From NCBI GenBank assembly GCA_015493615.1, contig WGCV01000002.1, forward strand, positions 62,001-126,000: a stretch of 64,000 bases of DNA, read 5' to 3'. The stretch comes from Melioribacteraceae bacterium. Its GTDB lineage: Bacteria; Bacteroidota; Ignavibacteria; Ignavibacteriales; Melioribacteraceae. A program made the translations under genes and the position numbers. This document shows positions 7,724-12,421 of the stretch, piece after piece (within the stretch, counting starts at the first letter, position 1; each line of letters opens with the position of its first letter). A model generated the notes under the pieces. The model was not told the origin of the DNA. It was given only the letters and a program-made list of their open reading frames with translations, and searched no databases.

Positions 7724-9295
7724 ATGAGAAATACATATCTAACACTACTAGTCATCGGAGTAATCATAATAGGAGCGGTTTATTACTTAAAAGATCCTAC
7801 CGTTTACCCGACAAAACTCGATCAGCTTAAAGAGAAGTACTCAGCTCCTCATAAAAAGAAAGCGGTTGATCACAGCAAATTTGCAGTTCTGCAAAAAAAA
7901 TTCAAATCGGCGCAAGAAGTTACAAAAGCTTGCTTAACTTGCCATAACGAAACAGCCAAAGAGATTATCGGCACTCCCCACTTTCGCTGGGAACGCCCGA
8001 TTTATCTCAAAAACAGAGGCGTTACGTATCTCGGTAAAGCGGACGCTTTAAATAACTTCTGTATTGGCGTTCAAGGAAGCGAAGTAAGCTGCGCAAAATG
8101 CCACGCAGGTTATGGAATGAACCGTACGGCTACGGCTATGGATACGGTAGCAAACGATATTGATTGCCTGGTTTGCCACGACAATTCCAACACCTATGTT
8201 AAAGGCGCCAATATGTTCGGCTATCCGGGAAAATCGGTTGACTTAAACGTAGCGGCAAAAAGCGTCGGACGCCCGACAAGAGATAACTGCGGCGTTTGCC
8301 ACTTTTTCGGAGGCGGCGGAAACAACGTAAAACACGGCGACCTTGAAAAATCAATGTTCCACCCTTCCCGCGATGTTGACGTTCACATGGCGGATTCAGG
8401 TCCGAATCTTCAATGCGTGGACTGTCATAAAACCGATCATCACAATATCGGCGGAAAATTATATTCCATCGAAGCTCAGAATGTTGGCAGAATCGAATGC
8501 GAGGACTGCCACAGCAACGAACCTCACGCAAGTGAAATTTTAAATGAGCACACCGTAAAAGTCGCATGCCAAACTTGCCACATTCCGGAATATGCGAAGG
8601 TCAATTCGGTTAATATCCATTGGGATTGGTCAACAGCCGGAAAATTGAGAGATGGGAAACCCTTTATGATAGAAGACTCGCTCGGCGATCACATTTACAA
8701 ATCGATAAAAGGTAGTTTTACTTGGGGACGCCATCTTAAACCGCAGTACTTCTGGTTTAACGGTACGGCAGATCATTATCTGCTGGGCGATAAAGTTCCG
8801 GAAGGCGACACTGTAGTTGTTCTGAACCAAATTCACGGTTCTTACAGCGACGTACGCTCAAAGATTTATCCGATGAGAATTCACACGACTAAACAGCCAT
8901 TTGATTTGGGCACAAGAATGATAATCCAGCCTAAATTAGCCGCTCTTAAAAAAGGAGTCGGCGCCTATTGGAAAGATTTTGACTGGAATAAAGCCGCAGA
9001 AGTCGGGATGAAACATGTCGGATTGCCTTACAGCGGTAAATTCGGGTGGATTAATACAATAATGTATTGGCCCTTAAACCACATGGTTTCGACAAAAGAT
9101 AAATCGCTGCAATGCACCGATTGCCATACCGAAAACAACAGCCGTTTAGCCGGATTGACTGATTTCTATATGCCCGCAAGAGACCACTATAACATTGTAG
9201 ATACTCTCGGGAAATTACTGATTATCTTAACACTGCTCGGCGTTATCGGTCACGGTTCAATTAGATACTATTTCAATAAAAAGAATAAATCATAA
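7724..9295 (+). CDS. Octahaem c-type cytochrome, tetrathionate reductase (OTR) family
   Basis: A membrane-anchored multihaem reductase on the periplasmic side. Eight CXXCH haem sites are visible in order: CLTCH (70-74), CAKCH, CLVCH, CGVCH, CVDCH, CEDCH, CQTCH and, far downstream, CTDCH. Residues 5-21 form an N-terminal anchor, and a second helix ends the protein (about 497-515) before a Lys-rich tail. Spacing and length (523 aa) match the octahaem tetrathionate reductase family; the Shewanella enzyme of this family reduces tetrathionate, nitrite and hydroxylamine in vitro. The next gene is a cytochrome b likely to deliver quinol electrons, and the two after that encode YeeE/YedE halves, which points to sulfur oxyanions. 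The true substrate is inferred. Confidence 0.88.
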   Translation: MRNTYLTLLVIGVIIIGAVYYLKDPTVYPTKLDQLKEKYSAPHKKKAVDHSKFAVLQKKFKSAQEVTKACLTCHNETAKEIIGTPHFRWERPIYLKNRGVTYLGKADALNNFCIGVQGSEVSCAKCHAGYGMNRTATAMDTVANDIDCLVCHDNSNTYVKGANMFGYPGKSVDLNVAAKSVGRPTRDNCGVCHFFGGGGNNVKHGDLEKSMFHPSRDVDVHMADSGPNLQCVDCHKTDHHNIGGKLYSIEAQNVGRIECEDCHSNEPHASEILNEHTVKVACQTCHIPEYAKVNSVNIHWDWSTAGKLRDGKPFMIEDSLGDHIYKSIKGSFTWGRHLKPQYFWFNGTADHYLLGDKVPEGDTVVVLNQIHGSYSDVRSKIYPMRIHTTKQPFDLGTRMIIQPKLAALKKGVGAYWKDFDWNKAAEVGMKHVGLPYSGKFGWINTIMYWPLNHMVSTKDKSLQCTDCHTENNSRLAGLTDFYMPARDHYNIVDTLGKLLIILTLLGVIGHGSIRYYFNKKNKS

Positions 9296-9301
9296 GGTAT
9301 A

Positions 9302-9949
9302 ATGATGAAAAGAGTTTATATATATGAAGGATTCGAACGATTTTGGCACTGGACACAAGCCATTCTCATCATTTTTCTTGCCTTCACAGGATTTGAAGTA
9401 CACGGCTCATATACATTTTTCGGATATGAAAACGCCGTGGTTTATCATCGTATAGCAGGATGGACTTTGCTTGGTCTTTATGTATTTGCAGCTTTCTGGC
9501 ATATTACTACCGGAGAGATCAAACAATATATCCCCACTCCGAAATTTATGCGCGCACAGATTGAGTATTATCTTCTGGGAATTTTCAAAAACGCGCCTCA
9601 TCCTGTTAAGAAAAACAGATTGAGTAAATTAAATCCGCTACAAAAGATTACTTACTTTTCGTTAATGGTAGTTATTATACCTTTGATGATGGTAACCGGA
9701 CTTCTTTACATTTACTACAGAGTGCCTCAGGCAAGCGTAGTTGATCCTTTGAATGTTTCAAGTTTGGGACCGATTGCCCTCTGGCACACTATCGGGGCTT
9801 ACTTATTAGTAATCTTTTTAATTGGACATCTTTATTTGATTACAACCGGACATACGGTTCTTACCAACTTAAAAGCTATGCTAACCGGTTGGGAAGACAT
9901 TGAAGATGAAGATGATGAAAATGAACAAACTGAAAATGTTAATAACTAA
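9302..9949 (+). CDS. Four-helix cytochrome b (cytochrome b561/Ni-hydrogenase b type)
   Basis: An integral membrane quinol-oxidising subunit, probably partner of the octahaem cytochrome encoded 6 bp upstream. Four hydrophobic helices lie at about 15-32, 50-68, 115-138 and 158-182. Histidines suited to haem b binding occur in FERFWHWTQA, VVYHRIAGW, FWHITTGE, ALWHTIGAY and IGHLYLITTGH. The C-terminus is a very acidic tail (about 198-215). The start may be either of two adjacent ATG codons (9302 or 9305). The fold and haem pattern are clear; the direction of electron flow is inferred from the neighbours. Confidence 0.87.
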   Translation: MMKRVYIYEGFERFWHWTQAILIIFLAFTGFEVHGSYTFFGYENAVVYHRIAGWTLLGLYVFAAFWHITTGEIKQYIPTPKFMRAQIEYYLLGIFKNAPHPVKKNRLSKLNPLQKITYFSLMVVIIPLMMVTGLLYIYYRVPQASVVDPLNVSSLGPIALWHTIGAYLLVIFLIGHLYLITTGHTVLTNLKAMLTGWEDIEDEDDENEQTENVNN

Positions 9950-9958
9950 GGTGTTATT

Positions 9959-10471
9959 ATGAACGAAGAAACAAAATACATGAATCCATATCTCGCGGGA
10001 TTTCTGTTAGGACTTCTGATTGTTTTAGCAATTTACCTTAACGGCGACGGACTCGGCGCCAGCGGCGCGGTAAAGAATACCGTTATCGGAACAATACAGG
10101 CTGTTGCTCCGCACTCTCAGATTCCTTATATGAAATCATATAATGCCACTCATCCCGATAGTCCTTGGAAAACATGGTTAATCTGGGAAATTATCGGATT
10201 GATAATAGGCGCATTTGTCTCCGGTTTAATTCACAACCGCAACAAATTCGTTATCGAACATGGACCGAGGATATCATCCAAAACGAGACTTGTAGCCGCC
10301 GTAATCGGGGGCATGCTATTCGGAATAGGTTCTCAATTCGGACGAGGTTGTACAAGCGGAGCCGGATTGGATGGAATGGCAGTATTCTCAGTAGCAGGAT
10401 TTTTAGTTACATTTGTAATTTTTGGTACCGGATACATTCTGGCGCCGTTTTTTAAGAAACTTTGGCTATAA
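9959..10471 (+). CDS. YeeE/YedE-family transporter half (first)
   Basis: A 170-residue membrane protein with four predicted helices (about 10-28, 60-82, 103-122 and 138-160). It carries the family signature around GIGSQFGRGCTSGAG (about 120-134), whose cysteine corresponds to the conserved cysteines that relay thiosulfate in full-length YeeE/TsuA. Full-length YeeE proteins are internal duplications; here the two halves are separate adjacent genes, as in PmpA/PmpB-type pairs. The gene follows the cytochrome b by 9 bp. Transport of thiosulfate or another reduced sulfur compound is inferred from the family and context. Confidence 0.83.
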   Translation: MNEETKYMNPYLAGFLLGLLIVLAIYLNGDGLGASGAVKNTVIGTIQAVAPHSQIPYMKSYNATHPDSPWKTWLIWEIIGLIIGAFVSGLIHNRNKFVIEHGPRISSKTRLVAAVIGGMLFGIGSQFGRGCTSGAGLDGMAVFSVAGFLVTFVIFGTGYILAPFFKKLWL

Positions 10472-10495
10472 TTTTAAATAATAAGAGAGTTTATT

Positions 10496-11689
10496 ATGGG
10501 ACCAATATATCCTGAACCAAACTTTAACTTGATGTTAGCGTTAGTAATCGGTTTCTTTTTCGGCTACTTACTGGAACATGCCGGTTTTTCGACATCAAAA
10601 AAATTAGTGGGCGTTTTTTACGGCTACGACTTTACCGTATGGCGAGTATTTTTTACCGCTGCAATTACGGGCATGGTCGGAATTTTGGCGCTTGCCCACT
10701 TCGGATTATTAAATCTCGACGCTATTTATATTAATCCCCTTTATTTGTGGTCGGTTATTGTAGGCGGAATAATCATGGGCTTCGGCTTCATCATTGGCGG
10801 TTTCTGTCCGGGCACAAGCATCTGCTCTACATTCATCGGCAAAATCGACGCCCTCTTTTTCGTAATCGGAGTAGCTCTCGGAATATTCCTTTTTATCATC
10901 GGTTATCCGCTGGTGGAAGGACTCCATAAAGGAAGCTACATGGGAACGCCTCAGTTATTCGACACCCTTAACATTTCAATGGGATTATTCACTTTCCTCG
11001 TTGTCATCTTTGCATTTTTCACATATTGGGCAGTTGAAAAAATCGAGTTGAAAGTTAATAAGGGTAAATCCGCCGATCCTACTCCCAAAAGTACTTTTGC
11101 GAAAATTACCGGCTTTGCTGTTGTAGTTGCAATCTTTGCATTGTTTATCCCTCCCAAAAAACCTACGATGTTGGCGGAATTTGCAAAACCTGACTTCGGT
11201 AAAGATATGCATATCAATTACATCACTCCCGATGAAGTTGCGGTTCGGTTGATTAAAGGCGATAAATCGATGCAGTTTGTTGATTTGCGCTTGCCCGGAG
11301 AATTCAAGAAACTTGCGCTTCCCTATGCCGTAAATGCAAAACCGGAACAGTTCTGCCAGATGAAAATGAAAAATGTTTTCAACGCCGCAGGTAAGATTAC
11401 AATTATTTATAGTAATGATGATAATCTTGACAGACGCGCCGCCGCCCTCGCAATGAAGGTAGGATATGAACCTCAAAATGTTTGGGTTCTCAAAGGCGGT
11501 TTTCCCGCATTCAAGAAAGATATTTTAGATTTTAAGCCTCCTGCAGTAATGCCTGCAAACCGAATGTTGCGAACTACTTACCTTTTCCGTGAAGAATTCG
11601 GACCGCAAATTATGCAGATTCTTAAGAATTCCAAACCGAGAAAAGTTGTTATTCCTAAAGCAAAACGCGCGCTCGGAGGCTGCGGTTAG
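10496..11689 (+). CDS. YeeE/YedE transporter half fused to a rhodanese-like domain
   Basis: This 397-residue protein has about six membrane helices in residues 1-220, with the YeeE/YedE signature EHAGFSTSKKL (near 26) and GFIIGGFCPGTSICS (near 98-112), including the conserved cysteine. Residues about 240-350 form a rhodanese-like fold (MQFVDLRLPGEF ... VWVLKGGFPAFKKDI). The loop where rhodaneses carry the catalytic cysteine reads IIYSNDDNLDRR and has no Cys. The protein ends in ALGGCG, placing one cysteine next to last on a flexible tail. It is the last gene of the cytochrome unit. It probably imports or hands over sulfur, but the mechanism must differ from a standard rhodanese. Confidence 0.84.
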   Translation: MGPIYPEPNFNLMLALVIGFFFGYLLEHAGFSTSKKLVGVFYGYDFTVWRVFFTAAITGMVGILALAHFGLLNLDAIYINPLYLWSVIVGGIIMGFGFIIGGFCPGTSICSTFIGKIDALFFVIGVALGIFLFIIGYPLVEGLHKGSYMGTPQLFDTLNISMGLFTFLVVIFAFFTYWAVEKIELKVNKGKSADPTPKSTFAKITGFAVVVAIFALFIPPKKPTMLAEFAKPDFGKDMHINYITPDEVAVRLIKGDKSMQFVDLRLPGEFKKLALPYAVNAKPEQFCQMKMKNVFNAAGKITIIYSNDDNLDRRAAALAMKVGYEPQNVWVLKGGFPAFKKDILDFKPPAVMPANRMLRTTYLFREEFGPQIMQILKNSKPRKVVIPKAKRALGGCG

Positions 11690-11717: not shown

Positions 11718-11750
11718 AAAGCCGTCTTAAATTTAAGACGGCTTTTTTTT
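11718..11750 (+). terminator. Strong rho-independent terminator after the cytochrome/YeeE unit
   Basis: A perfect palindrome AAAGCCGTCTTAAATTTAAG continuing to ACGGCTTT is followed by a run of eight T. It begins about 28 bp after the stop codon of the YeeE-rhodanese gene and marks the end of the four-gene unit. Confidence 0.88.
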
Positions 11751-11799: not shown

Positions 11800-12369
11800 C
11801 TACAAGTCCACTAACTTAATTTCAGTCAATTCTTTTAAATCTTCCCTCGTTATCATTTCAAGAATAAACTTCTTTTTTGGTAAGGTTCCTTTTCTAAGAT
11901 CTATATAATCTGAATAACTGGAATATTTCCAATCTTCTGCTTTCTCAACTAAATTTGAACGAACCGGGTTTTGATGAATGTAAGTTAGGAGAGTTACTAA
12001 ATATCTATTGTTATCTACCGGCTTGGATTTAGTATTTTGCTGGAATAAGTTTCCGTGACGGTTGTATTTTTTGTTGATTGCCTTTGTATATGAAGATAAA
12101 AGAATTTTGATTTTATGTGAAATTATATTTTGTTTGTTGAGATGTGCCACACCTTGAAGCCGTGGCACATCTGTTATAAACTCTTTTACTCTAACCAAAA
12201 AATGAAAATGTGTCGGCATTAAGCAATATGCTATTGTTTCTAAATATTCTTCGAGGTAAAAGCGGTATTTCTTTAGAAAATATCTATAATTTTCTTCTGA
12301 GCGGAAAAGCAATTCTTCGTTGTTTGTGCGATTGTAAATATGGTAAAAGTTGTTCTCGTAAAAATCCAT
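11800..12369 (-). CDS. REP-associated tyrosine transposase (Y1/IS200-like)
   Basis: A single-strand DNA transposase-like protein of the HUH superfamily. The metal-binding HUH motif is seen as THFHFLVRV, and the segment SYTKAINKKYNRHGNLFQ carries the candidate nucleophilic tyrosine and the conserved GxLFQ. The late TYIHQNPVRSNLV and WKYSSYSDY are also typical of the RAYT branch. The ATG at 12369 has AGAGGGG just upstream and gives 190 aa. It is a lone intact gene with hairpins on both sides rather than an IS with an accessory TnpB. RAYT proteins are thought to mobilise or maintain REP palindromes. Confidence 0.88.
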   Translation of the reverse strand: MDFYENNFYHIYNRTNNEELLFRSEENYRYFLKKYRFYLEEYLETIAYCLMPTHFHFLVRVKEFITDVPRLQGVAHLNKQNIISHKIKILLSSYTKAINKKYNRHGNLFQQNTKSKPVDNNRYLVTLLTYIHQNPVRSNLVEKAEDWKYSSYSDYIDLRKGTLPKKKFILEMITREDLKELTEIKLVDL

Positions 12370-12388
12370 TTGCCCCTCTCTATCTATC

Positions 12389-12421
12389 ATTCATCCGATG
12401 ACTTAAAGTCATCGGATGAAT
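12389..12421. repeat. Perfect 16-bp-stem palindrome upstream of the Y1 transposase
   Basis: ATTCATCCGATGACTT and its reverse complement are separated by one base, giving a 33-base near-perfect hairpin. It sits 20 bp upstream of the transposase start and is likely in its leader. The central GACTTAAAGTC resembles the core GGCTTAAGCC of the palindrome at 56603-56630. It may be a transposase target, a self-regulatory hairpin, or both. Confidence 0.65.

Follow-up and report, generated by a model that had tools for sequence, protein, structure and literature searches.

A split YeeE/YedE module with a terminal-cysteine pseudo-rhodanese in an octahaem cytochrome operon: a proposed sulfur carrier for periplasmic sulfur respiration

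Results

In a 64,000-nucleotide stretch of the genome of a Melioribacteraceae bacterium (contig WGCV01000002.1, positions 62,001 to 126,000; hereafter the window), four adjoining genes encode an octahaem cytochrome of the tetrathionate reductase family (OTR), a cytochrome b, and two separate halves of a YeeE/YedE protein (YE2 and YE1R), the second of which is fused to a rhodanese-like domain. On our reading this "rhodanese" is a tail-cysteine carrier and not a catalytic rhodanese, its catalytic cysteine having been lost and a cysteine standing at the end of the chain. Judged from gene families, conservation and gene context, the unit is probably a periplasmic complex for sulfur respiration that is fed by quinol and contains its own tail-cysteine sulfur carrier.

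A preliminary description of this DNA had recorded the rhodanese-like domain, and as far as the fold is concerned it was right: YE1R matches PF00581 at 36.8 bits, the best structural match of the domain (residues 241-345; 11216..11530, + strand) is chain 6mxv_B (Z 13.2, root-mean-square deviation 2.6 over 113 residues, with many rhodaneses tying within 1), and a profile search also finds GlpE and Sud (1qxn, E 1.5e-5). The catalytic position, however, is occupied by serine, and the protein ends in ...ALGGCG-COOH, a terminus that the description had overlooked and whose Cys396 (11681..11683, + strand) is the proposed sulfur-carrying residue. The end of the tail (residues 389-397) is predicted to be disordered, with a predicted local distance difference test score below 50 in an AlphaFold model made from a 52-row alignment; an earlier 18-row model was poor in the membrane part. 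In 25 aligned YE1R-type proteins the catalytic cysteine is gone and the C-termini read GGC, GGCG, GGCS or similar. We then collected 97 YE2-linked rhodanese-like proteins, which are interrelated and far from independent; they represent 96 of 106 YE2 loci and were found within 1.6 kb downstream of the YE2 match with a profile built from tail-inclusive sequences. Their catalytic-loop residue is Ser in 51, Ala in 23, Gly in 18, Asp in 2, Cys in 2 and Thr in 1, so a catalytic rhodanese fused to YeeE was rejected, the loop cysteine being absent in 95 of 97. A cysteine lies within the last two residues in 93 of the 97 (67/70 linked to OTR, 20/21 linked to PsrA/NrfD and 6/6 others), as compared with 52 of 1675 background open reading frames (ORFs) and none of 353 other labelled genes, and a terminal cysteine by chance was therefore rejected as well. 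The four exceptions are L127, which ends in GGCGG with its cysteine third from the end, L200, which has a frame break, and L125 and L142, which read SGGG-TGA-GGC-stop. Five of the ten YE2 loci outside the count are cut by contig ends, and the other five (L071, L091, L138, L148 and L162) end in GGC, EGC or GGCG. In 68 of 97 proteins, the rhodanese domain and tail together contain no cysteine other than the tail cysteine. A text pattern located the last rhodanese motif in 77 of the 97, and in these the chain runs on beyond it for 55-98 residues (median 67). No SoxY domain was found in YE1R, whose only matches were PF04143 and PF00581, but a SoxY-like glycine-flanked C-terminal cysteine is present (GGCG in the window).

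Mean net loop charges of the fusion, taken over 52 sequences from the N-terminus to the stretch past helix six, alternate as -0.88, +1.12, -0.92, +1.00, -0.42, +0.85 and -0.44. In 26 sequences of the separate tail proteins that have their own helix (a few with over-long starts), the net charge is +2.5 ahead of the helix and 0 after it. Under the positive-inside pattern, fold and tail are thus predicted to lie in the periplasm with OTR in both the fused and the separate form.

The two YeeE/YedE halves of the preliminary description were both recovered. YE2 (gene 3; 9959..10471, + strand; 170 aa) covers positions 175-309 of PF04143, the C half, and YE1R (gene 4; 10496..11689, + strand; 397 aa) covers positions 2-183, the N half, ahead of PF00581; they score 68.6 and 59.2 bits, respectively, against a gathering cut-off of 27. 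The sole cysteine of YE2, Cys131 (10349..10351, + strand), lies in a GRGCTSG motif found in 70 of 70 aligned loci, and YE1R Cys104 (10805..10807, + strand), in GGFCPGTS, is an invariant channel cysteine (70/70). In sequence the pair follows the split YedE1E2/PmpAB pattern, with neighbouring N and C halves and one conserved cysteine in each. Neither is a short PmpAB-like protein, and the modelled N half has about six long helices ahead of the rhodanese fold. No YeeE-type structure was among the Foldseek/VIA matches shown or the profile hits listed, in which the rhodanese domain fills the lists, so these are uninformative for the membrane part. YE2 scored 36.7 bits with the NCBIfam model of the thiosulfate transporter TsuA, far below its cut-off of 400. 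The TusA family (PF01206), which would contain a TsuB-like partner, had no match in the window's genome (96.8% complete) although 11 of 14 control genomes were positive, and this argues against TsuAB-style thiosulfate uptake.

The preliminary reading of gene 1 as an eight-CXXCH cytochrome and of gene 2 as a cytochrome b also held. OTR (7724..9295, + strand) contains eight CXXCH motifs, at residues 70, 123, 148, 189, 231, 259, 282 and 464, and hydrophobic segments at both ends that were seen by eye in the translation. It scored 550 bits with TIGR04315 (curated cut-off 375) and matched PDB 1sp3 with an E value of 2.7e-120, so that it belongs by similarity to the OTR family and may reduce tetrathionate. 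Its Cys113 (8060..8062, + strand) and Lys203 (8330..8332, + strand) correspond to Cys64 and Lys153 of 1SP3 and are conserved in 70 of 70 aligned YeeE-linked OTRs; we take Lys153 to ligate the active-site haem and Cys64 to have an active-site role. Gene 2 (9302..9949, + strand) matches PF01292 at 96 bits and is a likely quinol oxidase for OTR. Its nearest named model is the PhsC-type PRK15006, under whose cut-off it falls.

The arrangement is widely conserved. Among 296 genomes of the window's phylum we found 45 OTR loci over cut-off in 41 genomes, and 26 of these loci have the YeeE pair downstream. Maps with wide flanks were drawn for each of the 26 and for 11 of the 19 loci without the pair; for the remaining eight (seven of family f24, and G124) the absence of the pair rests on a YE1R search. 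The order OTR, cytochrome b, YE2, YE1 was confirmed by script in 24 of the 26, and in L080 the cytochrome b was seen on the map. L087 lacks the cytochrome b and has a multihaem protein after YE1, the counterpart of which in L103 shows cytochrome-b similarity at 22.5 bits, under the cut-off of 30.1; in L086 gene 4 is split into two ORFs. A scan of named genomes by OTR alignment was limited to the best 80 of 559 relatives and is thus biased towards the query. YeeE halves follow OTR on the same strand in 53 of these 80 (52 by script, L152 by map), under record titles that include Chloroflexi/Anaerolineae, Myxococcales, Bdellovibrionales, Spirochaetes, Gammaproteobacteria, Burkholderiales, Acidimicrobiia, Gemmatimonadota, Kiritimatiellae, Neomarinimicrobiota, Eisenbacteria, KSB1, Deltaproteobacteria, Chlorobi/Ignavibacteria and Bacteroidales. 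Many of the 53 have a cytochrome b joined to a seven-haem domain (from maps, and by Pfam for L110). Nine of the 27 without the pair have at most 2.1 kb of contig past OTR (L120, L126, L132, L143, L144, L166, L167, L171 and L178). The preliminary description had named a gene order not conserved in relatives as one refutation of its proposal; that refutation fails, as the order recurs in 26 of 45 loci of the phylum and in 53 of the 80 relatives. The comparison of octahaem and YeeE phylogenies that it suggested yielded close agreement: over 70 loci, the Mantel r was 0.843 for OTR-YE1, 0.867 for OTR-YE2 and 0.951 for YE1-YE2 (0 of 500 permutations each), and among the 34 OTR splits with good support, 4 are contradicted by YE1 and 6 by YE2. 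This congruence is compatible with ordinary vertical descent or with co-inheritance as a unit, between which the trees do not separate.

OTR also occurs in other settings. A second OTR of the window's genome (L092, G000:C41:15500-25500) has a cytochrome b without the YeeE pair, as do L093 (G009) and, in family f24, L100 and L102. L121 and L152 contain 15-haem OTR relatives adjoining or near an ordinary OTR and YeeE unit, and L136 and L146 have extra YeeE-like ORFs near the unit, L136 with two OTRs close together. OTRs without YeeE (L163, other Shewanella, and some Geobacteraceae or Desulfuromonas titles) often have a large ORF and a small monohaem cytochrome c upstream; in L163, the one checked, the large ORF is a DUF3373 protein, a distinct conserved context.

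The YeeE module is not confined to OTR. When 24 shorter YE1 matches were mapped, 18 lay in the order PsrA/PhsA-like subunit, small ORF, NrfD, YE2, YE1, tail protein, a context called with profiles built from L088, L090 and L091 and in which the small ORF is an Fe-S protein where checked. The catalytic subunits of L192, L088 and L198 have PhsA as their best NCBIfam model (512.7, 470.4 and 462.5 bits) yet stay under its 694-bit cut-off, and so are of the Phs/Psr kind rather than named members. The same PsrA-to-tail order was found in eight loci of a Neomarinimicrobiota search (L274, L275 and L277-L282) and in genomes whose records are titled Caldithrix (L286) and Spirochaetes (L288). A terminus of the ...KKKKKEGC kind is frequent among tail proteins, most of which lack any further cysteine in domain and tail. 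In 26 loci (L234-L258 and L270) the separate protein ends in cysteine. One PsrA-like operon (L090:4128-5415) has two consecutive tail-cysteine pseudo-rhodaneses, both ending in KPEGGC. In L186, L187 and L189 there is no reductase, and a rhodanese-like ORF of ∼300 aa lies just upstream (18-25 bits with an in-house profile; leaders seen by eye in L187 and L189), which in L189 scores 110.8 bits against 250 for the mercaptopyruvate sulfurtransferase model. L203 has a 561-aa rhodanese-like ORF and L206 a YeeE pair of a different kind, and in L191 no partner was recognised. Gene context thus indicates that one channel-plus-tail-cysteine module is attached to two unrelated respiratory enzymes, OTR and PhsA/PsrA-like reductases, and the sulfur theme already present in the preliminary description is strengthened by it.

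In four genomes of two phyla, the tail codon is TGA followed by Gly and a stop: G296 (titled Chloroflexi), G297 (titled Neomarinimicrobiota), and G886 and G892 of the phylum of G297. The latter three hold all fusions with E <1e-160 among 245 genomes of that phylum, in which the lower-scoring fusion of G766 has an ordinary cysteine (GGCS); in the phylum of G296, 12 of 350 genomes have the fusion and only G296 has the TGA. A hairpin follows the tail TGA in all four genomes, with its triloop at a distance of 21-22 bases counted from the T of the TGA, and the stem of L230 shows paired changes relative to L229 and L231 (by eye). All four genomes contain tRNA-Sec over cut-off (67.8-72.8 bits), with anticodon tca by ARAGORN, as well as SelA, and three contain SelB (G892 is a 1.2-Mb genome). 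The tail TGA thus apparently encodes selenocysteine, a replacement that would fit a reactive residue, where it is expected. A tRNA-Sec match in L213 (47.5 bits, over cut-off) was discarded because ARAGORN called it tRNA-Ser, and near-cut-off matches are unreliable. In G904 and G903 (loci L287 (L268) and L289 (L264)), an in-frame TGA stands instead at the invariant YE1 channel cysteine (GGY-TGA-PGTS), and a hairpin like those above follows. In G904, SelA and a partial match to SelB are both over cut-off, and no tRNA-Sec was found at E 1e-9 among the 150 of 599 candidates scored; in G903 there was no SelA match and no SelB over cut-off. A 2026 review counts a YeeE (GUxSG) and an octaheme TIGR04315 protein as selenoproteins (PMC13188914).

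The four ORFs adjoin on the + strand (7724-9295, 9302-9949, 9959-10471 and 10496-11689) with gaps of 6, 9 and 24 bp, as had been described. The strong terminator previously noted is present as a 12-pair stem at 11718-11745 (11718..11745, no strand assigned). It was listed on the - strand by computation; it is probably bidirectional, because the + strand too runs into T (by eye). The promoter candidate fared less well, as 11 sigma-70-like sites were counted against 10.9 ± 3.4 in shuffles, which is chance level. Beyond the terminator, and directed towards the operon, lies a transposase-like ORF (11800-12390, - strand; Y1_Tnp 20.1 bits, under its cut-off, 23). Elsewhere, regulator genes stand ahead of the OTR unit; they are of the MerR type, with a C-terminus rich in cysteine (checked in L079, by eye in L065), the MarR type (L070) and the ArsR type (L110).

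Discussion

Cleavage of S-S bonds is common to OTR, Phs/Psr-type enzymes and rhodaneses, and the proposed mechanism is built around it. The cytochrome b, as its family suggests, would pass electrons from quinol to the octahaem reductase in the periplasm. YE2 and YE1 would form a split YedE1E2-type channel for sulfane sulfur, with a conserved cysteine in each half, and YE1 would present on the periplasmic side a rhodanese fold that lacks the catalytic cysteine and is extended by a flexible tail with a cysteine at its end, GGC(G). From its conservation and gene context we propose that this cysteine, like the C-terminal cysteine of SoxY, is a covalent carrier of sulfur that links the mouth of the channel with the catalytic centre of an S-S-cleaving enzyme, which would be the octahaem reductase here and elsewhere a PhsA/PsrA-like molybdenum reductase, or else the module would sit beside a two-domain rhodanese. 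The flow we consider likeliest starts from an external S-S compound, which would be split on the tail or with its help; the reduced part would be released outside, and the sulfane sulfur on the tail could go inward via the channel. That the substrate is an S-S compound and that sulfur moves inward are both inferred, and are the options we favour. In lucinid symbionts a soxY variant is reported to adjoin otr (PMC11237559).

A wider reading, towards which we are tentative and rather doubtful, is that the module is a reductive counterpart of Sox: a modular periplasmic carrier of many phyla in which a membrane-tethered pseudo-rhodanese, by its terminal cysteine or selenocysteine, shuttles sulfur between a YedE1E2 channel and an exchangeable S-S-cleaving partner (octahaem cytochrome, molybdenum PhsA/PsrA-like reductase or two-domain rhodanese). 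The octahaem "tetrathionate reductase" would then act on protein-bound sulfur. The natural substrate of OTR, nitrogen or sulfur compounds, is described as unsettled (PMC4484225, PMC5276818, PMC6896113). With a conserved sulfur carrier in the operon, that question would become directly testable, namely whether tail-bound sulfur is reduced, and if the module serves PhsA/PsrA-like enzymes too, a general sulfur-carrier device would have been missed in the sulfur respiration of many uncultured phyla. Such a carrier is easily overlooked because it reads as a rhodanese and its reactive residue lies at the opposite end of the chain, sometimes behind a TGA read as a stop. No description of a tail-cysteine pseudo-rhodanese with YeeE halves was found in the parts of the literature consulted, which does not prove its absence from print.

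Several observations weigh against a sulfur-carrying respiratory complex. In the window's phylum, 19 of 45 OTRs lack the YeeE pair (ten of them in family f24), and so do the eleven loci titled Shewanella in the set of the best 80 of 559 relatives; OTR can thus dispense with the module, and the OTR that has been assayed, from Shewanella, is of the kind without it. L195 and L199, from one genus, retain cysteine at the catalytic position, one YE1R-like ORF (L271/L290, 362 aa) has no such tail, and another (L283) runs into masked bases. The hairpins resembling selenocysteine insertion sequences clearly beat mononucleotide shuffles only in L217, L264 and L231 (1, 9 and 11 of 500, respectively), and those of L229 (71), L230 (99) and L268 are not clear of them (71-99/500). 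The tail hairpins of the four genomes are those of L217, L229, L230 and L231, two of which are clear of the shuffles. Both tRNA-Sec and SelA also occur in genomes with cysteine tails (tRNA-Sec, e.g., in G299, G301, G303 and G304; SelA with SelB in G298), so selenocysteine is permitted and not proven. Many records are metagenome bins. Finally, the channel could run outward instead, and OTR may reduce nitrite, since no match to NrfA was found in the window's genome.

Of these, the direction of flow gives rise to the strongest alternative, which we nevertheless regard as unlikely: the same carrier would work in reverse as a disposal respiration, with surplus cytoplasmic sulfane sulfur passing through the channel to the tail and the reductase discharging it outside as sulfide. 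It would account for the missing TusA-family acceptor, without which imported sulfur lacks its usual cytoplasmic carrier, and for the partner enzymes, since OTR and PhsA/PsrA-like enzymes, as we understand these families, are both reductases at the periplasmic face. However, the modules that have no reductase and an upstream rhodanese-like ORF (L186, L187 and L189) fit loading for import better, and YedE1E2 is reported to import, not export, zero-valent sulfur (PMC10812762).

The preliminary description had instead proposed that OTR respires tetrathionate and that the YeeE pair takes up the thiosulfate product. Its conservation is confirmed and its sulfur theme, shared with the PhsA/PsrA-like operons, probably survives; the capture of thiosulfate probably does not, and as a whole we hold this model to be improbable. 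Gene order and trees are indeed conserved, Shewanella OTR is described as reducing tetrathionate (PMC4484225), and full-length YeeE proteins are reported to import thiosulfate (PMC11582611). Yet the TsuA score of 36.7 bits out of 400 and the absence of a TusA/TsuB partner from the genome speak against it, as does the report that YedE1E2 moves zero-valent sulfur (PMC10812762). The model moreover leaves both the tail cysteine and the lost rhodanese cysteine unexplained. PhsA-type partners would give sulfide and sulfite rather than thiosulfate.

Two further possibilities seem very improbable to us. One is that OTR reduces nitrite or hydroxylamine, as the Shewanella enzyme is reported to do in addition to tetrathionate (PMC4484225) and as the lack of an NrfA match might allow, while the YeeE-tail module protects OTR or scavenges poisoning sulfur; the same module in PhsA/PsrA-like operons of other phyla points to sulfur as the shared currency. 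The other, equally far-fetched, is a thiol-disulfide relay in which YeeE pair and tail move reducing equivalents and keep OTR or exported proteins reduced, for which a terminal cysteine or selenocysteine could in general serve and with which the conserved OTR Cys113 would agree, whereas the partners are PhsA/PsrA-like reductases and rhodanese-like proteins, and a single conserved cysteine in each half matches the YedE1E2 pattern for zero-valent sulfur (PMC10812762), not a CXXC relay.

Compared with known systems, the carrier-and-channel reading that we prefer finds a close parallel in YedE1E2 and PmpAB, which likewise consist of two half-size YeeE proteins with one conserved cysteine each (PMC10812762, PMC11582611). 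YedE1E2 is reported to import zero-valent sulfur with both cysteines essential (PMC10812762), and PmpA and PmpB, which correspond to the two halves of YeeE, are short proteins of ∼130 aa that have four membrane helices (PMC11582611). Unlike them, the window's N half has about six long predicted helices, it carries or precedes a pseudo-rhodanese with a terminal cysteine, and the operon includes a respiratory reductase. SoxYZ with SoxT resembles the present unit in having a periplasmic carrier, a cysteine in a glycine-rich C-terminus and a YeeE-like channel partner; the cysteine in the C-terminal GGCGG of SoxY is reported to bind sulfur (PMC6067878), and SoxYZ has been proposed as sulfur donor to the YeeE-like SoxT (PMC11582611). 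Here, however, the fold is that of a rhodanese, the carrier would be tethered to the channel or the membrane, the partners are reductive rather than oxidative Sox enzymes, and there are apparent selenocysteine variants. The OTR of Shewanella oneidensis (1SP3) shares the eight haems and the equivalents of Cys64 and Lys153, whereas the Shewanella-titled loci lack the YeeE pair (in L163 the genes upstream encode a monohaem cytochrome and a DUF3373 protein) and the window's enzyme is hydrophobic at both ends and has a cytochrome b of its own. Phs/Psr reductases with Wolinella Sud (1QXN) offer another rhodanese-fold periplasmic partner of a sulfur reductase; Sud carries sulfur on its rhodanese loop cysteine, whereas here that cysteine is gone, the cysteine is on the tail, and a channel pair has been added. 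The YTD cluster of sulfur disproportionators (PMC12998232, PMC13047784) similarly ties a YedE-related protein to sulfur metabolism, but it groups yedE with tusA, dsrE-like and hypothetical genes, none of which is in the window's operon (nor was TusA found in the genome), so that the operon is distinct from YTD.

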